Assembly (NCBI RefSeq): GCF_963675975.1
Contig: NZ_OY780939.1
Coordinates: 3,100,001 to 3,164,000 of the forward strand
DNA from: Halarcobacter sp.
Lineage (GTDB): Bacteria > Campylobacterota > Campylobacteria > Campylobacterales > Arcobacteraceae
Reading direction: 5' to 3'
Length of the DNA: 64,000 nt
Positions within the stretch are counted from its first letter, which is position 1. The number at the start of each line of letters is the position of its first letter. The translations under genes and the position numbers were made by a program. This document shows positions 3,792-24,487 of the stretch, piece after piece. The notes under the pieces were generated by a model. That model saw only the letters and a program-made list of their open reading frames with translations, searched no databases and was not told the origin of the DNA.

Positions 3792-5057
3792 TTAGCTTTT
3801 TATACTACTAATTGCCTCAATCATTGTCTTTACTACTTTTCTAAGCTCATCTTCACTTATGATATATGCAACAATTGAATAAATAAGTTTTCCAAAAGGT
3901 CTAATCCAAACACCATTTTGAACACAATAATCTTGAATATACTGAGCATGGGAATTATCTTTTAACTCTATTACTCCAATTACTCCTATATTTCGTACAC
4001 TTTTTACAAGCTCTAAATCTTTTGCTTTGTCTAACTCTTCACTAAAGATTTTTTCTATATTATCTACTTTTAATTTCCAATTCATCTGTGTAAGTAGATT
4101 TATACTCTCTATTGCAACACTGCAAGCAAGTGGATTTCCCATAAATGTAGGTCCATGCATCAAAGCACCAAGTTTTGAATTTGAAATAGTTTCACTAATA
4201 TTTTTTGAGGTAATCATAGCTGCCATTGTCATATAACCACCAGTTAAACCTTTTCCAACAGTCATAATATCTGGTTTAACATCAGCCCACTCACAAGCAA
4301 ACATTTTACCTGTATGACCAAAGCCTGTTGCTATCTCATCTGCTATCATTAGAAGTCCATACTTATCACATAGCTCTCTAACTTTTTTTACATATAAAGG
4401 ATTATATATCCTCATGCCACCTGCACCTTGCACAACTGGCTCAATTATAATCCCTGCACACTCTTCATGATGTTTTGAAACACACTCTTCCAAAGCTTTA
4501 ATAGATTCACTACAATCACTATCAAAGCCCAACTCAGGAGCTTTAGTAAATATATGTTGTGGTAAATAAGAGCCATATATTGAGTGCATAGAATTTTCTG
4601 GGTCACAAACACTCATTGCAGCTAAAGTATCACCATGATAGGCATGTTCTAAAGCTATAAATTTATATCTTTTTTTTCCTAAGGCTTCTTGATATTGTAT
4701 TGCTGTTTTAAGAGCAACCTCAACAGATACTGAACCTGAATCACATAAAAAAACACTATTTAATCCAGTAAGTTCACACAATTGTTTTGAAACCATTGCT
4801 GCTTTTTCATGACTTAAACCACCAAACATAATATGTGGCATAATATCTGCTTGTTTTTTTAAAGCATCATTTAGTTTTTTATTATTATATCCATGAATTG
4901 CACTCCACCACGAACTCATACCATCAATTAATTCACTTCCATCATCTAAAAATATTTTTGTTTTATCAGTTTTTACTACAGGTAAGATAGAAGTTTTAGA
5001 AGGTAGTGAGTTATATGGATGCCATACATGCTCTTTATCAATCTCTTGCCAATTCAT
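3792..5057 (-). CDS. bioA: Adenosylmethionine-8-amino-7-oxononanoate aminotransferase
   Basis: A 421-residue class III PLP aminotransferase that makes 7,8-diaminononanoate from KAPA using S-adenosylmethionine, the antepenultimate step of biotin synthesis. The N-terminal HVWHPYNSL motif and DGMSSWWSAIHGY are specific to BioA. DEIATGFGHTGKMFACEW carries the PLP-contacting Asp, and the Schiff-base lysine is in MTVGKGLTGGYM. Length matches the family (about 425-430). It stands alone; no other bio gene is adjacent. The start at 5057 (MNWQEIDKEHVW) is preceded on the minus strand by a GAAGGA ribosome-binding site. Confidence 0.97.
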   Translation of the reverse strand: MNWQEIDKEHVWHPYNSLPSKTSILPVVKTDKTKIFLDDGSELIDGMSSWWSAIHGYNNKKLNDALKKQADIMPHIMFGGLSHEKAAMVSKQLCELTGLNSVFLCDSGSVSVEVALKTAIQYQEALGKKRYKFIALEHAYHGDTLAAMSVCDPENSMHSIYGSYLPQHIFTKAPELGFDSDCSESIKALEECVSKHHEECAGIIIEPVVQGAGGMRIYNPLYVKKVRELCDKYGLLMIADEIATGFGHTGKMFACEWADVKPDIMTVGKGLTGGYMTMAAMITSKNISETISNSKLGALMHGPTFMGNPLACSVAIESINLLTQMNWKLKVDNIEKIFSEELDKAKDLELVKSVRNIGVIGVIELKDNSHAQYIQDYCVQNGVWIRPFGKLIYSIVAYIISEDELRKVVKTMIEAISSIKS

Positions 5058-17067: not shown

Positions 17068-18198
17068 ATGAAAAAAATACTCTTACTTTTATTATTTATA
17101 TCTTTCTACTTATATGCAAATCCACTTATAGTTAAAGAAACAAATGATGTAAAATATTTCCAAAGTGGTGATGAAAAATATTGGTGCCCTATTTCAGGTT
17201 TTAGTTTAAAAGAAAACTATAAAACCTCTTTTATATCAACTTTAAATAATGGAAGAAAAAGACAATATGCTTCTTTAACTTTTCTTGTAAAAGACAATGA
17301 AGAGTATGGAATTGATTTGAACAATGTACAAGTTATAGATTGGGCTTCTGAAAAATATATTGATGCAACAAAAGCTTATTTCGTAATTGGAAGTGAGGTT
17401 AAACCTTTATTGGCAAGTAAGAGTAAAATAGCTTTTAAATCTAAAGAAAATGCAAAAGATTTTATAAAACAATATGGTGGAAAAATTATTAGTTTTAATG
17501 AAGCCGTAAAATTAAGTCAAAAAGCACTGAAAGATGATTATAAAAAACAAAAAACAATAAATATAAAAAAGATATACCCAAAGGGTAAAAAAATATTTGA
17601 AAAAAGATGCTCACAAGATATAGACCCTACTGATTACTTGGAAATAAATGAATTAAAAGCAGATATAACAAACAATAATCTATGTAAAAAATTAAAAGAA
17701 TCACAACTTCAAACTGTGGCAATGTACTTATGGGATGTGAAAAGATTTGGAGATTTAGATTCTATAAAAAATAGAGTTGTAGTAGAAGAGGATGAGAAGT
17801 GTCCAGTATGTGGAATGTTTGTAGCCAAATATCCAAGATGGGCAGCACAAATAATCTATTCACATGGAAATCATGAACATAAATTTTCTTTTGATGGGGT
17901 GAAAGATTTGATGAAGTTTTATTTTGACCCAAAAAGATGGATTAGCTCAAATAATCATATGGTAAATAAAGATAATATTAAACAAATTCTTGTAACAGAT
18001 TATTATACACAAGAAGCAATTGATGGTGCAAAAGCTTATTATGTAATTGGTTCAGATGTTTATGGTCCAATGGGACACGAACTAATACCTTTTGAGAAAC
18101 TTGAAGATGCCAAAACCTTTAAAACTGACCATAGTGGTAAAATGATAATTGAATTTGATAAACTAAAAGAAGAGGAAATATATAAACTAGATGAATAA
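17068..18198 (+). CDS. Exported protein with two NosL-like domains
   Basis: A 376-residue protein with a signal peptide (MKKILLLLLFISFYLYA). The first NosL-like domain has a modified site, YWCPISGFSL (only one Cys of the usual CxxC). The second has the full ECPVCGM-type site (EKCPVCGMFVAKYPRW). Between them is a stretch (KGKKIFEKRC...LCKKLKESQLQTVAMYLW) resembling a haem-less cytochrome tail, like that of the divergent neighbour. It is the first gene of an operon with an ABC exporter-type permease and ATPase, overlapping the next gene by 8 bp. Probably receives or delivers copper in the periplasm. The loss of a Cys suggests domain 1 has a different role. Confidence 0.85.
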   Translation: MKKILLLLLFISFYLYANPLIVKETNDVKYFQSGDEKYWCPISGFSLKENYKTSFISTLNNGRKRQYASLTFLVKDNEEYGIDLNNVQVIDWASEKYIDATKAYFVIGSEVKPLLASKSKIAFKSKENAKDFIKQYGGKIISFNEAVKLSQKALKDDYKKQKTINIKKIYPKGKKIFEKRCSQDIDPTDYLEINELKADITNNNLCKKLKESQLQTVAMYLWDVKRFGDLDSIKNRVVVEEDEKCPVCGMFVAKYPRWAAQIIYSHGNHEHKFSFDGVKDLMKFYFDPKRWISSNNHMVNKDNIKQILVTDYYTQEAIDGAKAYYVIGSDVYGPMGHELIPFEKLEDAKTFKTDHSGKMIIEFDKLKEEEIYKLDE

Positions 18199-18511
18199 AA
18201 AAACTCTTTATCTATTTTCTACACTTTGTTTACTGCTTCTTTTTACTTTTGTGGAAGTTGCATATTTATCTGTAAATAAAACTTTAAATAACAAAGATAT
18301 TAAAGATAAAAATAGCTTAGTTTCTATTTTAGAACTTCCTGATTTAGCAATTTCAACAGAAGCTATGTATATACGGCATAGGACATTAAGTGATACTTTT
18401 AATATATTAAAAGAGGATCCACAGTTAAAAGAGTATTTCCCTACTACATTTGTTTATTCATACTCACATATTTTAAAAAATACACCTTCAAAGATTTTAA
18501 ATGAAAAATAA
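18191..18511 (+). CDS. Small membrane-anchored protein of the NosL/ABC operon
   Basis: A 106-residue protein with one N-terminal membrane helix or signal anchor (residues 5-27) and a periplasmic part that contains AMYIRHRTLSDTFNIL. It overlaps both neighbours (8 bp upstream, 11 bp downstream), so translation is coupled and it belongs functionally to the operon. I do not recognise the family. It lacks cysteines. Confidence 0.75.
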   Translation: MNKKTLYLFSTLCLLLLFTFVEVAYLSVNKTLNNKDIKDKNSLVSILELPDLAISTEAMYIRHRTLSDTFNILKEDPQLKEYFPTTFVYSYSHILKNTPSKILNEK

Positions 18512-19688
18512 AATAAATATCTATCTTATAGAATATGCTATCAACTCTATTCTTAGACAAAAATTTAAAAACATATTCATACTTTTTGTTTTTACCTTTT
18601 TAACTGCTTTATTATGTTCAGTTTTTTTTATTTCAAATTCAATTAAATATGAACTAAACACAACACTAAAATCTCTACCTCAAATAACTGTACAAAAGAT
18701 AAAAGCAGGAAGACATTACGATATAGATGCTGATGCAATAGATGAGATTTTAAATATAGCAGGGGTTTCAGATGCAGTTGCTAGAGTTTGGGGATACTAC
18801 TATTTTGAAAATGCTGGCGTAAATTTTTCAGTAATTGGAATAGATGAATTTGAAAACCAATATAAAAACTCTTTAAACAAACTTGTTAAAGATGTCGATT
18901 TTTCACAGCTTCAAGAAAACTCTTCTATGATTATAGGAAAGGGCGTAGAAAAAATACTAAGTGATAACTACTATGAAGAGTATTTTAATTTTATAAAACC
19001 TGATGGGAAATTTAAAAAAGTTAATATTGCAGGAGTTTTTCAAGACAATCTAGAGTTAGAATCAAATGACACAATAGTTTTACCAAAAGAGTTGGCTTTA
19101 GAAATATTTGGAATGCCTGAAAATAAAGCTACAGATATAGTTGTAAAAGTTGCCAACCCTGAAGAGATATTTACTATTGCATCTAAAATAAAACTACTTT
19201 TTCCAGATACTAGAGTAATAACCAATAAAGAGTTAGAGATAAGTTATCAAAACATCTTTGACTACAAAGGTGGATTGTTTTTAGCGCTATTTATTGTCTC
19301 AATTTTTACTTTTTTTATAATTATTTATGACAAAGCTAGTGGTCTTACCTCTGAAGAGAAAAAAGAGATTGGGGTATTAAAAGCAATTGGCTGGAAAGTG
19401 GAAGATGTTTTAAAAGAGAAGTTTTATGAAAGCTTTATTATCTCTTTTATGGCATATGTATTGGGTATATTTATTGCTTTTGGATTTGTATATATACTAA
19501 ATGCTCCTTTACTAAAAGAGATTTTTACAGGTTATTCTCAACTTAAAACCTCTTTTGAGTTACCTTTTGTATTAGATTTCAATACTTTATTTTTAGTATT
19601 TTTCCTAAGTGTTCCAATATATATTGCAGCTACAATTGTTCCTTCTTGGAGAAGTGCAACTATAGAAACAGATAAAGTGATAAGATAA
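18501..19688 (+). CDS. ABC transporter permease, FtsX/MacB family
   Basis: A 395-residue inner-membrane protein. One helix is at about 20-45, a large periplasmic MacB-type domain at about 50-250, then three helices toward the C-terminus (FLALFIVSIFTFFIIIY, FIISFMAYVLGIFIAFGFV, FLVFFLSVPIYIAATIVP). The EEKKEIGVLKAIGWK segment is the FtsX-family coupling region that contacts the ATPase. It pairs with the ATPase encoded 1 bp later (ATG overlaps stop). Such four-helix permeases work by mechanotransmission rather than classic transport. With NosL proteins upstream, release or handling of a metal protein is the likely job. Confidence 0.88.
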   Translation: MKNKINIYLIEYAINSILRQKFKNIFILFVFTFLTALLCSVFFISNSIKYELNTTLKSLPQITVQKIKAGRHYDIDADAIDEILNIAGVSDAVARVWGYYYFENAGVNFSVIGIDEFENQYKNSLNKLVKDVDFSQLQENSSMIIGKGVEKILSDNYYEEYFNFIKPDGKFKKVNIAGVFQDNLELESNDTIVLPKELALEIFGMPENKATDIVVKVANPEEIFTIASKIKLLFPDTRVITNKELEISYQNIFDYKGGLFLALFIVSIFTFFIIIYDKASGLTSEEKKEIGVLKAIGWKVEDVLKEKFYESFIISFMAYVLGIFIAFGFVYILNAPLLKEIFTGYSQLKTSFELPFVLDFNTLFLVFFLSVPIYIAATIVPSWRSATIETDKVIR

Positions 19689-20359
19689 TGATTGAATTAA
19701 AAAATATTACAAAAGATTTTGAGATAAACAAAAACAATATAGTTCGAGCAGTAAAAAATATAAATCTCTCAATAAAACAAGGTGAATTAGTTGTTTTAAA
19801 AGGTGCAAGTGGAAGTGGTAAAAGTACTATTCTTTCACTGATTGCTTCTTTGTCAAAACCAACCTCAGGTGAAGTAATTGTTGATGAGAAGAGAGTTTCT
19901 AAGCTACCTGATAGTTTTGCATCAATGTATAGAAGAGAAGATATAGGTTTTATTTTTCAAAAATATAATCTAATCCCAACTTTAAGTGTAAAAGAGAATA
20001 TCTTACTTCCTTTAATTCCACAAAATCCAAGCGAAGAAGAGGCCTCAGAACTTTTAGAAAAAGTTATGAAAAGATTTAAAATCGAGCATAAAAAAGATGC
20101 AATAGTTAAAAACCTATCAGGTGGAGAGCAACAAAGAGTTGCAATAGCTAGAAGTCAAATAAATAATCCAAAAATCATAATAGCTGATGAACCAACAGCT
20201 AACTTAGATAAAGAGTTATCTGAACACTTTATCTCAATTTTAAAAGAGTTAAAAAGTGATGATAAAACAATAATAGTAGCTACTCATGACCCACTTTTTT
20301 TTGAATTAGATTTTGTAAATAGAGTTATAGAGCTTGCAAATGGAGAGATTATAAAGTGA
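19688..20359 (+). CDS. ABC transporter ATP-binding protein (LolD/MacB type)
   Basis: A 223-residue ATPase with Walker A GASGSGKST near residue 38, Q-loop FQKYNLIPTLSV, signature LSGGEQQRVAIARSQ, Walker B IIIADEPTANLD and H-loop ATHDP. Length and sequence match the LolD/MacB class that partners with FtsX-type permeases, here the gene just upstream. The last codons overlap the GTG start of the next membrane protein, which again suggests a coupled operon. Confidence 0.92.
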   Translation: MIELKNITKDFEINKNNIVRAVKNINLSIKQGELVVLKGASGSGKSTILSLIASLSKPTSGEVIVDEKRVSKLPDSFASMYRREDIGFIFQKYNLIPTLSVKENILLPLIPQNPSEEEASELLEKVMKRFKIEHKKDAIVKNLSGGEQQRVAIARSQINNPKIIIADEPTANLDKELSEHFISILKELKSDDKTIIVATHDPLFFELDFVNRVIELANGEIIK

Positions 20360-21324: not shown

Positions 21325-21478
21325 TTTTTCAATTTTTTTATAAAAAACAGCCCTTTTTGAAAAAATAAAATGCAAAAAAGTTAATTTTTTTTCTTAAAAT
21401 TTAGTCCTAAAAAAGCCACTTTTTGATGGAGTAAAAGCAGCTTAAGTTTATTTTCAGTTTATTTCTTTTTTTTTGATT

Positions 21479-21484
21479 TATAAT
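21479..21484 (+). promoter_or_regulatory. Candidate -10 box for the leader-A transcript
   Basis: TATAAT 40 bp before the first stem of RNA leader A, preceded by the T-rich, TTTTGATT-type sequence common in Campylobacterota promoters. A matching TATAAT precedes leader B. Confidence 0.5.
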
Positions 21485-21524
21485 TCCGAAGTAGAATAAG
21501 GAACATACCTTAAAATGTTTCAGA

Positions 21525-21588
21525 GAAAACCTATATAAGCATTTGGCCGTGCATTAAAATGTTTTCAATTATGTTGTACATAAGTACA
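21525..21588 (+). ncRNA. Structured RNA leader, copy A (unrecognised motif)
   Basis: Stem 1 is GAAAAC (21525-21530) with GTTTTC (21561-21566). It encloses the core TAAGCATTTGGCCGTGCAT (21536-21554), identical in copy B. Stem 2 is TGTAC (21575-21579), loop ATAA, GTACA (21584-21588). It is in the 5' leader of the small Cys-rich gene, whose Shine-Dalgarno AGGAG lies 22 bp later. Copy B keeps both stems with longer, covarying pairs, which supports an RNA structure. I match it to no riboswitch class I know; it could be a ligand- or protein-binding leader. Confidence 0.7.
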
Positions 21589-21620
21589 TTAAATCATACT
21601 TTTTTTAGGAGAGTATTTAA

Positions 21621-21854
21621 ATGTTAAAAAAATTAATTCTTCCATTATTTATTGTTTGTTCTTTAATGCAAGCAGAAGAGACACAAACTATTGAAGATAA
21701 ATATGCTGCGTGCGAAAAAGCATACGATGAATGTCTAGTTATTTGTGAAGAAACTACTTCAAATGTTGAAGAGTGTGTTGCAACTTGTGATGAAAAACTT
21801 TATAACTGCAACTCAAAAGTTGAAGAAGAAGAAAGTAAACAACCAGTAGAATAA
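21621..21854 (+). CDS. Small exported acidic protein with twin CX3C motif
   Basis: A 77-residue protein: signal peptide (MLKKLILPLFIVCSLMQA, residues 1-18), then an acidic mature part of about 59 residues with six cysteines in a symmetric order C-x6-C-x3-C-x9-C-x3-C-x6-C. Twin CX3C spacing suggests two antiparallel helices joined by disulfides, or a metal-binding hairpin. The tail is rich in Glu. It starts at ATG 21621 after AGGAG, and RNA leader A lies in front. Nearby NosL/ABC genes hint at a metal or redox role, but the transcripts are separate. No family recognised. Confidence 0.78.
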   Translation: MLKKLILPLFIVCSLMQAEETQTIEDKYAACEKAYDECLVICEETTSNVEECVATCDEKLYNCNSKVEEEESKQPVE

Positions 21855-21894
21855 GTTAATACCTTATTCTACATATTAATTTTCGAGGAAAGAG

Positions 21895-23019
21895 ATGAAA
21901 TTTAAAAAATTGTCTGTTAAAAAATCTTCTGAATTGATTGAAAATATTGATGGATTTACAGACTTTTTAGACACATTAAAACAACTTATAAGAGTTCCAT
22001 CTGTAATAGGATATGAACACTCTTTTTTTCTATATTTAAAAAGAGAATTAGATGAATTAGGTATTGATACATATTATTATGATGGACTTTTAGTTGCACA
22101 AGGTAAACAACCAACAAATGGAATATTAAGTGCACACATAGATAGACATGGTTTAGTTTGTACAGGTCCTAGTGAGTTTCAGTTTGCAGCATTTCAAACA
22201 AAAAATAGAATTGACTTAAAAGGGAACTCTGTATCTGAACAAACATATCAACAAATCTCATCAAGATTTCTAAATCAGCCTGTTCAAGCCTATGAGCCTT
22301 GGTCAGGAAGTTATTTAGGGATAGGTAAGATTAGTAAAGTTTATATGAATGAGAAAATCAATAACTTAATGTTTAAAATTGATAATCTTGAACACCTTTT
22401 ACCAGGTACACCAATTGCATTTGTTGATAAATTAGAGATTAGTGATGAACTTATTTCAGCACAATTAGATAACGTTTTATCAGCAGCAATTATCATATAT
22501 CTTTATCAACATGGATTTCAAGGTACAGCTTTTTTTACTGCGCAAGAAGAAGCAGGAAGAAGTTGGAGATTCGTATTAGATTGGTTTAGAAAAAATGATG
22601 TTAGCACATCTGAACTATTAGTATTGGATACAAGTCCATATAATACTAGAGAAGAAGCTTCTTTACAGGAGATTGTATTAAGAAATAGAGATGCAAATGC
22701 AAGGTTTAGGTCACCTTTATTGAAAATTCTTAAGAATTTTTGCCATAAAAACAATATTAATTTTTCTTGTAAAGATACTTATATACAAGAAAAGAATAAA
22801 ATATTGTATGAAAATGAAAAGCCTTTATTATCATTAGGTAGTACAGAGCTTGGAAGAATCATAAAGGAATCTAAAGGTAAGATTCAAGGTACAACATTAC
22901 AAATACCAACTACAGGTTATCATACTGTGGAGGAAACAGCTTCAATAAAGTCTGTTAAATCAATGTTGTATATGTTAAAAAGTTTATATATAGAAGAAAG
23001 AAGTGATGAAAAAAATTAG
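21895..23019 (+). CDS. M42/M20-type zinc peptidase
   Basis: A 374-residue cytosolic metallopeptidase of the M42 (FrvX/glutamyl aminopeptidase) kind. The metal ligands are visible: His81 in SAHIDRHG, Asp192 in AQLDNVLSA, the Glu pair 218/219 in TAQEEAG, Asp245 in VLDTSPYN, and the last His in TGYHTVEE. M42 enzymes trim N-terminal residues from peptides with two metal ions. It follows the twin-CX3C gene by 40 bp on the same strand with a GAGGAAAG ribosome-binding site, so it is likely in the leader-A transcript. It overlaps the next gene. Confidence 0.88.
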   Translation: MKFKKLSVKKSSELIENIDGFTDFLDTLKQLIRVPSVIGYEHSFFLYLKRELDELGIDTYYYDGLLVAQGKQPTNGILSAHIDRHGLVCTGPSEFQFAAFQTKNRIDLKGNSVSEQTYQQISSRFLNQPVQAYEPWSGSYLGIGKISKVYMNEKINNLMFKIDNLEHLLPGTPIAFVDKLEISDELISAQLDNVLSAAIIIYLYQHGFQGTAFFTAQEEAGRSWRFVLDWFRKNDVSTSELLVLDTSPYNTREEASLQEIVLRNRDANARFRSPLLKILKNFCHKNNINFSCKDTYIQEKNKILYENEKPLLSLGSTELGRIIKESKGKIQGTTLQIPTTGYHTVEETASIKSVKSMLYMLKSLYIEERSDEKN

Positions 23020-23419
23020 TAATAAAGATTTAGTTAAAAAATATTATGAAGAGTTGTGGAATAAACAAAATAAAGAATTGATTGATGTACTTTTTGATGA
23101 TGAGATAACATTTAGAGGTTCACTAAACATTGAAACAAAAGGTAAAAAAGAGTTTGAAAATTATATGACTAATATCTTAACTGGTATTCCAAATTTATAC
23201 CATGGTATTGAAACTATAATTGAAGAGAATGGAATAGTTGCAGTAAGAGCAGTATATAATGGTACCCACAGAGGTAAAATATTTGATTTCGAACCAACAA
23301 ATAAAAGAATAAAATATAATGGTGCATCATTCTTTAGATTTAATGAAGATAAAATAACTGATGTATGGGTTTTAGGAGACTTGGCTACACTAAAAGACCA
23401 GCTAAGTCCAAAAATTTAA
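23003..23419 (+). CDS. SnoaL-like / ester-cyclase-fold protein
   Basis: A 138-residue NTF2-fold protein. Sequence features match the SnoaL-like 'ester cyclase' family: LVKKYYEELWNKQNKELIDVLF, then FENYMTNILTGIPNLYHGIETII, HRGKIF and the closing WVLGDLATLKDQL. The real substrate is unknown; many such proteins are small-molecule-binding enzymes. It starts inside the end of the peptidase gene (17-bp overlap), so both are translated together. Met1 and Met2 are adjacent; the second (23006) is equally possible. Confidence 0.8.
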   Translation: MMKKISNKDLVKKYYEELWNKQNKELIDVLFDDEITFRGSLNIETKGKKEFENYMTNILTGIPNLYHGIETIIEENGIVAVRAVYNGTHRGKIFDFEPTNKRIKYNGASFFRFNEDKITDVWVLGDLATLKDQLSPKI

Positions 23420-23565
23420 ATTTTTTTAGCTTTTTTTCAAAAATTTTATTTTAAAAAATTGAAAAATATATTTTTATTTTTAGCTGTAAGTACCTAAATT
23501 AAGGGCTTTAAAGCGTATAAATAAATTTTAAGATTTATTTTAGGAAAAATATTTTTATTTTGTTT

Positions 23566-23571
23566 TATAAT
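23566..23571 (+). promoter_or_regulatory. Candidate -10 box for the leader-B transcript
   Basis: TATAAT 22 bp before stem 1 of RNA leader B, in a T-rich setting like the one before leader A. Confidence 0.5.
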
Positions 23572-23593
23572 TTTAATACAAAATAAGAGGTTT

Positions 23594-23669
23594 CCTGAAA
23601 ACTTGTAAGCATTTGGCCGTGCATAATATATAGTTTTCAGGAGTATGTTGTACTCATTTGAAGAGTACA
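23594..23669 (+). ncRNA. Structured RNA leader, copy B (unrecognised motif)
   Basis: Stem 1 is CCTGAAAAC (23594-23602) with GTTTTCAGG (23633-23641), three pairs longer than in copy A. The core TAAGCATTTGGCCGTGCAT (23606-23624) is identical to copy A. Stem 2 is TGTACTC (23649-23655), loop ATTTGAA, GAGTACA (23663-23669), again two pairs longer than in A. The sequence between the stems also shares TATGTTGTAC. It sits about 120 bp before the first small paralog gene. The 371-bp spacer around it (23420-23790) has no longer gene. Confidence 0.7.
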
Positions 23670-23736
23670 TTTATACTAACAGATTAAACTTAGTACAGAG
23701 TTAAAAGAAGTATAAATGTTAAAACTTTTTTAACAT
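23667..23736 (+). promoter_or_regulatory. Mutually exclusive hairpins and five-codon ORF after leader B
   Basis: ACATTTATACT (23667-23677) is complementary to AGTATAAATGT (23709-23719), and ATGTTAAAA (23716-23724) to TTTTAACAT (23728-23736). The first pairing uses the ACA that also closes stem 2 of leader B, and the second shares ATGT with the first, so only some can form at once. ATG at 23716 opens a five-codon ORF (MLKLF) after an AGAAG sequence. The same place in copy A is the real start of the Cys-rich gene (AGGAG, then ATGTTAAAA). So it is either a leader peptide or a decayed copy of that gene. Confidence 0.5.
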
Positions 23737-23790: not shown

Positions 23791-24018
23791 ATGGCATCTT
23801 ATTATGATGAGATGTTAAATAAATATAAAGTTGAAGACCCTATTAACAAACTTGTTTATGAAATTACAACTTTTATAAAAAATCGACGTGATTTCAATGG
23901 GGCTATAAATTTGATTTTAAGTAATAACTTAAAATTACAAGATGTTGTTTCTAGGACAGCTAGACTTACATTAGACGATGTTGTTAAATTAGCAGATTTG
24001 TTAATTTTAAAAAAATAG
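23791..24018 (+). CDS. Small cytosolic protein, paralog 1
   Basis: A 75-residue helical protein with no export signal, after a TAGGAG ribosome-binding site. The segment from NKLVYEITTFIKNRRDFNGAI to VSRTARLTLDDVVKLADLL aligns over about 50 residues with the protein at 24278-24487 (IxxxIKNRxDxxxA, SRTxxxT, KLADxxI), so the two are paralogs. Family and function are unknown. It opens a three-gene run of tiny overlapping or close genes that follow RNA leader B. Confidence 0.75.
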   Translation: MASYYDEMLNKYKVEDPINKLVYEITTFIKNRRDFNGAINLILSNNLKLQDVVSRTARLTLDDVVKLADLLILKK

Positions 24019-24042
24019 ATTTTGTAAATTAGGAAAAGGGAA

Positions 24043-24288
24043 ATGGAATCTATTATATATGAATTAAGAGCAAATGATATAAAAGAAGAAGATATCGACT
24101 ATATCATGAAAAGAGTTAAAAATAGAATTTCTGAAGAAAATATTGATTCAGAACTTCAAAAGTTAGGTTATCCAAAAGTTTTCACTGTGGATTATGATGA
24201 TTATGATTATAGTGAATATGATGATGTTTATGACGATGATTATGACAATTCTCATGGATATAAACAAGGTTATGACGATGAGTTATAA
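24043..24288 (+). CDS. Small Asp/Tyr-rich protein
   Basis: An 81-residue protein: residues 1-45 are a charged helical part (MESIIYELRANDIKEEDIDY), residues 50-81 are dominated by Asp and Tyr. The ribosome-binding site GGAAAAGGGAA precedes the ATG. The tail is low complexity, likely disordered and highly acidic. It overlaps the next gene by 11 bp in another phase. No family recognised; its conservation between two paralogs in the same operon supports it as real. Confidence 0.65.
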   Translation: MESIIYELRANDIKEEDIDYIMKRVKNRISEENIDSELQKLGYPKVFTVDYDDYDYSEYDDVYDDDYDNSHGYKQGYDDEL

Positions 24289-24487
24289 TAGTGCTGAAGA
24301 GCTAAATTTAAATGAACAGATTCATCAAATAATTTATCTAATAAAAAATAGAAACGATTATACTAATGCTGCTAGAATTATGATAGAAAATAGTTTATCA
24401 ATAGAGACTCTAAAAAGTAGAACTTTAAAGATTACACAAATGGAGTTTGCAAAACTTGCAGATTCGATTATAGAGAGTCGAGGTTAA
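24278..24487 (+). CDS. Small cytosolic protein, paralog 2
   Basis: A 69-residue protein starting MSYNSAEELNLNEQIHQI. I chose the ATG at 24278, 8 bp after an AAGG; a longer frame upstream (from 24194) is only the Met-rich shadow of the Asp/Tyr repeat. The IIYLIKNRNDYTNAARIM and KSRTLKITQMEFAKLADSI parts are clearly related to the protein at 23791. Function unknown. It is the last gene of the run and converges on purL. Confidence 0.75.
   Translation: MSYNSAEELNLNEQIHQIIYLIKNRNDYTNAARIMIENSLSIETLKSRTLKITQMEFAKLADSIIESRG

Follow-up and report, generated by a model that had tools for sequence, protein, structure and literature searches.

A structured leader in two copies

What is the leader that occurs twice ahead of small genes in this window (the whole stretch of 64,000 nucleotides of Halarcobacter DNA analysed here), and at what level does it act? 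An earlier note had reported two occurrences of the 19-mer TAAGCATTTGGCCGTGCAT, and these are exact copies at 21536-21554 and 23606-23624; when up to three mismatches were allowed, neither the rest of the window nor any of 100 shuffles contained a further match, and the single extra match to the 16-nt core in the whole genome, with two mismatches, lies within a coding gene. Both copies lie on the forward strand, as do the genes that follow them: the operon of a six-cysteine gene after copy 1 and three small-protein genes after copy 2, in agreement with the small downstream genes that had been described. The TATAAT boxes proposed upstream were found at 21479 and 23566, and a 5' element, GTAGAATAAGG (21491-21501, forward strand), coincides with or adjoins the expected start of transcription and is kept in leaders with or without the first hairpin.

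The leader comprises H1, whose variable stem carries GCA-UUUGGCCG-UGC at its tip; H2, of the form GKUGUAC...GUAC; and, less certainly, H3. In copy 1, the P1 strands of H1 (21525-21566), GAAAAC (21525-21530) and GTTTTC (21561-21566), enclose GCATTTGGCCGTGCA (21539-21553), H2 (21575-21588) pairs TGTAC with GTACA, and H3 (21596-21616) is a hairpin over the Shine-Dalgarno sequence AGGAG. In copy 2, the P1 strands of H1 (23594-23641) are CCTGAAAAC (23594-23602) and GTTTTCAGG (23633-23641) around GCATTTGGCCGTGCA (23609-23623), H2 (23650-23668) pairs GTACTC with GAGTAC, and H3 (23669-23717) pairs ATTTATACT with AGTATAAAT over the start codon of a relic reading frame. The stems around the 19-mer and the second stems, which the earlier note had picked out from the letters, are present in the minimum-energy folds of both copies; the third hairpin over the translation start, also in both copies, and the GCA/UGC pairing within the supposed core had escaped it. 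Relative to shuffled sequences the fold of copy 2 is far more stable (z -3.5 to -4.5), and that of copy 1 slightly more stable only (z -0.8 to -1.7).

A family centred on the Arcobacteraceae

Using a pattern search of 104 Arcobacteraceae genomes and a covariance model for which six leaders served as the seed, we found 28 confident members in the Arcobacteraceae. Genomes of the window's genus usually carry two leaders and up to three, and the leader is also present in other Arcobacteraceae genera. Wider sampling, of the class (397 genomes) and of the order (399 genomes), added a confident member in a single genome of another family (G261). There too the leader is followed by six-cysteine, SnoaL-like and small-protein genes; we infer that it was gained by horizontal transfer. 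Matches in unrelated bacteria lay within coding genes and were judged to be chance, as were pattern matches inside open reading frames (L049-L053, L166, L177, L180, L183 and L184) and weak model matches (L092, L162, L163 and L191). The members themselves are intergenic, upstream of genes and on the coding strand, and not inside coding genes, where homologues would have spoken against an RNA leader.

No Rfam 15 family reached its gathering threshold in the window or in four relatives, no member matches Rfam, and a permissive Rfam search gave only chance-level matches off the motif; as judged by Rfam, therefore, this is a new RNA family, yet a known kind of device. Going by the part of the source available, a 2019 screen that covered Arcobacter sp. 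L left most Arcobacter-only motifs unnamed (PMC6429828), and the leader may have been sighted among them.

Stems that change on both sides

In the 28 leaders aligned to the model, 15 of 20 stem pairs are altered on both sides, standard pairs fill 94.5% of pair cells, and 51 cells have changed on both sides versus 10.6 in shuffles; shuffles and slid partners score far below the real pairing. The contention that stems differing by whole pairs reflect selection for structure is borne out, with P1 varying in length and sequence while its pairs co-vary. P2 also changes as a pair, from GC to AU, in two leaders (L085 and L161). Because the 28-leader alignment was fitted to the structure, we also ran an alignment-free partner-swap test, in which the two flanks of a core paired much better with each other (-11.6 kcal/mol) than with the flanks of other leaders (-7.8 kcal/mol; p about 5e-5). 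P1 of copy 1 was weak in this test (p 0.36), which counts against the explanation that we favour below. RNAalifold, given a structure-blind alignment, recovered P2 and H2 and missed P1, because that alignment does not bring the two strands of P1 into register.

Judged from the pattern of substitutions, these comparisons show H1, a variable stem with an apical hairpin and a conserved octaloop, and H2 to be structures kept by selection: across the Arcobacter family the shape of the hairpins has persisted through changes of sequence. The idea of an RNA leader thus survives, with homologues that covary, lie between genes and match no Rfam family.

The first hairpin is an optional module

The core had been called invariant, and it is so in some genera; elsewhere it has drifted, is absent or is inverted. 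The octaloop reads UUUGGCCG in the window's genus, in G035 and in three genomes of genus g19, and UUUGGCGG in L085 and L086, and it has drifted further in L084, L087 and L161. Of the closely related G056 and G064, one has H1 in its second leader and the other lacks it cleanly while retaining H2; H1 is also missing in L127 and L128, is replaced by unrelated hairpins in L091, L093 and L095, and retains its stem with a new loop in L089. In L088 (G084, about 4607-4725) the core is inverted (GCACCGCCAAATGC) between the P1 arms, as if flipped between inverted repeats. Since H1 has been lost, replaced, re-looped or inverted among relatives, it is, on comparative grounds, an optional module, strongly constrained in sequence where present. 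Its absence from some relatives that retain the operon counts against our preferred explanation.

The leader of genus g2 is much shorter, its 5' AUAGAAUAAGA pairing with UCUUAUUCUAU upstream of AGGAGAAUAA. We considered a pseudoknot in which CCATCAAA, 5' of the core, would pair with TTTGGTG, 3' of P1; in the window's genus it suited several leaders by eye, but it failed in genus g19 and was rejected.

A third hairpin at the translation start

The pairings of H3 differ by lineage: UUUAUACU with AGUAUAAA, CUUUUAUA with UAUAGGAG, AUACU with AGUAU and, read partly by eye, GUCU with AGAC. In 30 leaders the H3 region is more stable than shuffles (mean z -1.33, p 1.6e-7), and access to the start region is marginally reduced (p 0.048), p-values that are optimistic because the leaders are related to each other. 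Occlusion of the Shine-Dalgarno sequence by itself was not significant in the related leaders (p 0.20) and was set aside as a sole explanation; this result and the marginal accessibility count against the explanation favoured below. The folding models show in part that either the Shine-Dalgarno sequence or the start codon lies under H3, and control of translation would be the best-supported output of the leader.

A family-wide switch in which the 5' TAGAATAAGG pairs with the anti-start strand UUUAUACUA was not supported, the two showing no co-evolution across the family (p 0.16); complementarity between the 5' element and the anti-start strand is clear only in genus g2, L127 and L128.

Operon genes and a relic

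The genes after copy 1 encode a small exported protein whose six cysteines have the mirror-like spacing C-x6-C-x3-C ... C-x3-C-x6-C (21621-21854), an M42-type peptidase (21895-23019) and a SnoaL-like protein (23006-23419). None of the six cysteines varies among six relatives, and structure prediction gives a two-helix hairpin; family and fold searches with the six-cysteine protein gave no significant match (best fold E 1.9). After copy 2 all that stands in the position of this gene is a relic of it, five codons long, which the earlier note had missed: an open reading frame encoding MLKLF (ATG TTA AAA CTT TTT TAA, 23716-23733). The three small-protein genes beyond it (23791-24487) had no confident family match. 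Second leaders elsewhere are still followed by the whole six-cysteine gene (L038 and L043) or by other short relics (L034, L035, L042 and L044), so that leader and six-cysteine gene were presumably duplicated together and the leader outlived the gene. A search of plasmids found no match.

Several other features lie in and around these operons. At 21845-21872, where the six-cysteine gene ends and just 5' of the M42 gene, is a perfect hairpin, GTAGAATAAG...CTTATTCTAC, which repeats the 5' element of the leader, 21862-21872 being the reverse complement of GTAGAATAAGG; genus g2 has the M42 gene in first position, behind a leader made up of the two strands of this hairpin. The relic at copy 2 coincides with a near-perfect inverted repeat, ATGTTAAAA-CTTT-TTTAACAT (23716-23736). 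By eye, a RimK-type-like ligase gene occurs later in the operon in L047, L144, L145, L149 and L085 (genus g19, G036), and genus g19 has a RimB-like protease gene there too. Just 5' of the leaders, at 17068-20359, is an operon with an FtsX-type permease and, assigned by eye, a NosL-like repeat protein and an ABC ATPase.

Promoters and copies within operons

The promoter of copy 1 reads TTAAG-N6-TTCAG-N21-TATAAT (21442-21484, forward strand) and that of copy 2 TTAAG-N6-TTTAG-N22-TATAAT (23528-23571, forward strand); the general form, TTAAG-N6-TTHAG-N21/22-TATAAT, precedes 31 of 38 leaders, and by analogy its 11-bp direct-repeat period may resemble that of OmpR/PhoB-type operators. The genome has four matches to this pattern, no excess over a reversed control. 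Three of these precede the two leaders and, outside the window, a 2OG-Fe(II) oxygenase gene (L203, in G000 at about 1715335), relatives of which follow the genes of copy 1-type operons in other genera. It is this link to the oxygenase gene, rather than the pattern count, that suggests that the common promoter repeat marks one regulon. The sequence TAGAATAA after TATAAT was discarded as a genome-wide mark of the regulon, as it matched no more often than a control pattern.

Some leaders lie within operons. In L037 the SnoaL-like gene ends a few nucleotides before the second copy starts, and there is no promoter motif; L045 is placed similarly, likewise without the motif, and L042 is probably intra-operonic and without a promoter. 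Such copies indicate that the element acts at the RNA level.

Preferred explanation and its rivals

Two-sided pair changes and a position upstream of genes, outside coding sequence, place this element, as far as its sequence goes, among structured cis-regulatory leaders. Conserved loops that top stems of varying sequence and length are typical of protein-binding hairpins. On balance we lean towards a family of cis-acting mRNA elements that gate translation of the adjoining gene, with the H1 loop recognised by a putative trans-acting protein. Under this explanation H3 would form the default 'off' state; the loop UUUGGCCG and the GKUG junction before H2 would be recognised by a putative trans-acting factor, most likely an RNA-binding protein; and its binding would alter the opening of H3 or the stability of the mRNA. 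The RNA would then be a second layer above the transcriptional regulon suggested by the common promoter repeat, and the leader probably controls the protein output of small, little-known operons. Protein-binding translational operators of autoregulated operons are alike in having a short conserved loop and a variable stem near the translation start, whereas the present leader is found on two or three unlinked operons per genome and its binding protein is putative.

The chief rival, possible though clearly less probable, is a riboswitch for a metabolite or ion, in which H1, the GKUG junction and H2 would form a pocket and the ligand would free or hide the ribosome-binding site through H3. Two separate near-invariant segments (the octaloop and GKUGUAC), covarying stems, a hairpin over the translation start and the occurrence of two or three copies per genome before different small operons are all as a riboswitch would have them; however, the clean loss of H1 with H2 and H3 kept, and its replacement or inversion elsewhere, would be odd for a ligand pocket, the operon genes point to no ligand, and the switch between 5' element and anti-start strand lacks family-wide support. 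Known translational riboswitches and orphan leader motifs, such as the candidates of the GC-IGR screen as far as the available part of that source describes them (PMC6429828), share covarying hairpins, a conserved loop and junction, few target gene types and, less certainly, a ribosome-binding-site hairpin; the present leader differs in having no Rfam match or known ligand, in a main hairpin that is optional and in one genome inverted, and in its intra-operonic copies. An RNA thermometer would likewise hide the start codon or the Shine-Dalgarno sequence in an AU-rich hairpin, as H3 may do here, but has no need of the upstream near-invariant hairpins of this leader.

Next, and doubtful, is a processing or stability element, with H1 and H2 shielding the 5' end or marking an intergenic cleavage site and no switching. 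The occurrence of the leader both in 5' leaders and between genes, and its retention after decay of the six-cysteine gene, would suit such a role, yet a pure shield needs no 15-nt sequence conserved across genera. We think it very improbable that a DNA element, either a protein-binding site or a small invertible or mobile hairpin, is transcribed by chance: the clean presence and absence in G056 and G064 and the inverted core of L088 would fit, but not the compensatory changes in P1 and P2, the same strand and the same position before H2 in nearly all members, or the want of copies elsewhere in the genome. Least credible is pairing between RNAs by the loop, as a GGCC self-dimer or with a trans-acting antisense sRNA, since the GGCC that the earlier note had seen as a pairing palindrome in the window copies is GGCG, GACC, GGUC or GGUG in other genera, so that self-complementarity is not conserved, and the exact 9-nt CGGCCAAAT, the complement of AUUUGGCCG, occurs in the genome only opposite the two leaders, which makes kissing or full-loop antisense pairing unlikely.

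Implications

A bolder reading, which we offer tentatively and think would quite probably prove wrong, is that these leaders form a class of sensing RNA of their own, all but confined to the Arcobacteraceae. H1 would be a plug-in that evolution adds, removes or inverts, the 5' end and the translation-gating part on either side of it staying fixed, and the RNA would have survived the loss of its former target gene. G056 and G064, close relatives that differ in the presence of H1, would provide a natural pair for testing what the putative sensing hairpin contributes. If confirmed, the leader would be an RNA family outside Rfam in the Arcobacter group, from which, to our knowledge, few structured leaders are known, and it would tie an RNA to an uncharacterised regulon of an exported six-cysteine helical-hairpin protein, a SnoaL-like protein, a peptidase, a 2OG-Fe(II) oxygenase and small proteins.
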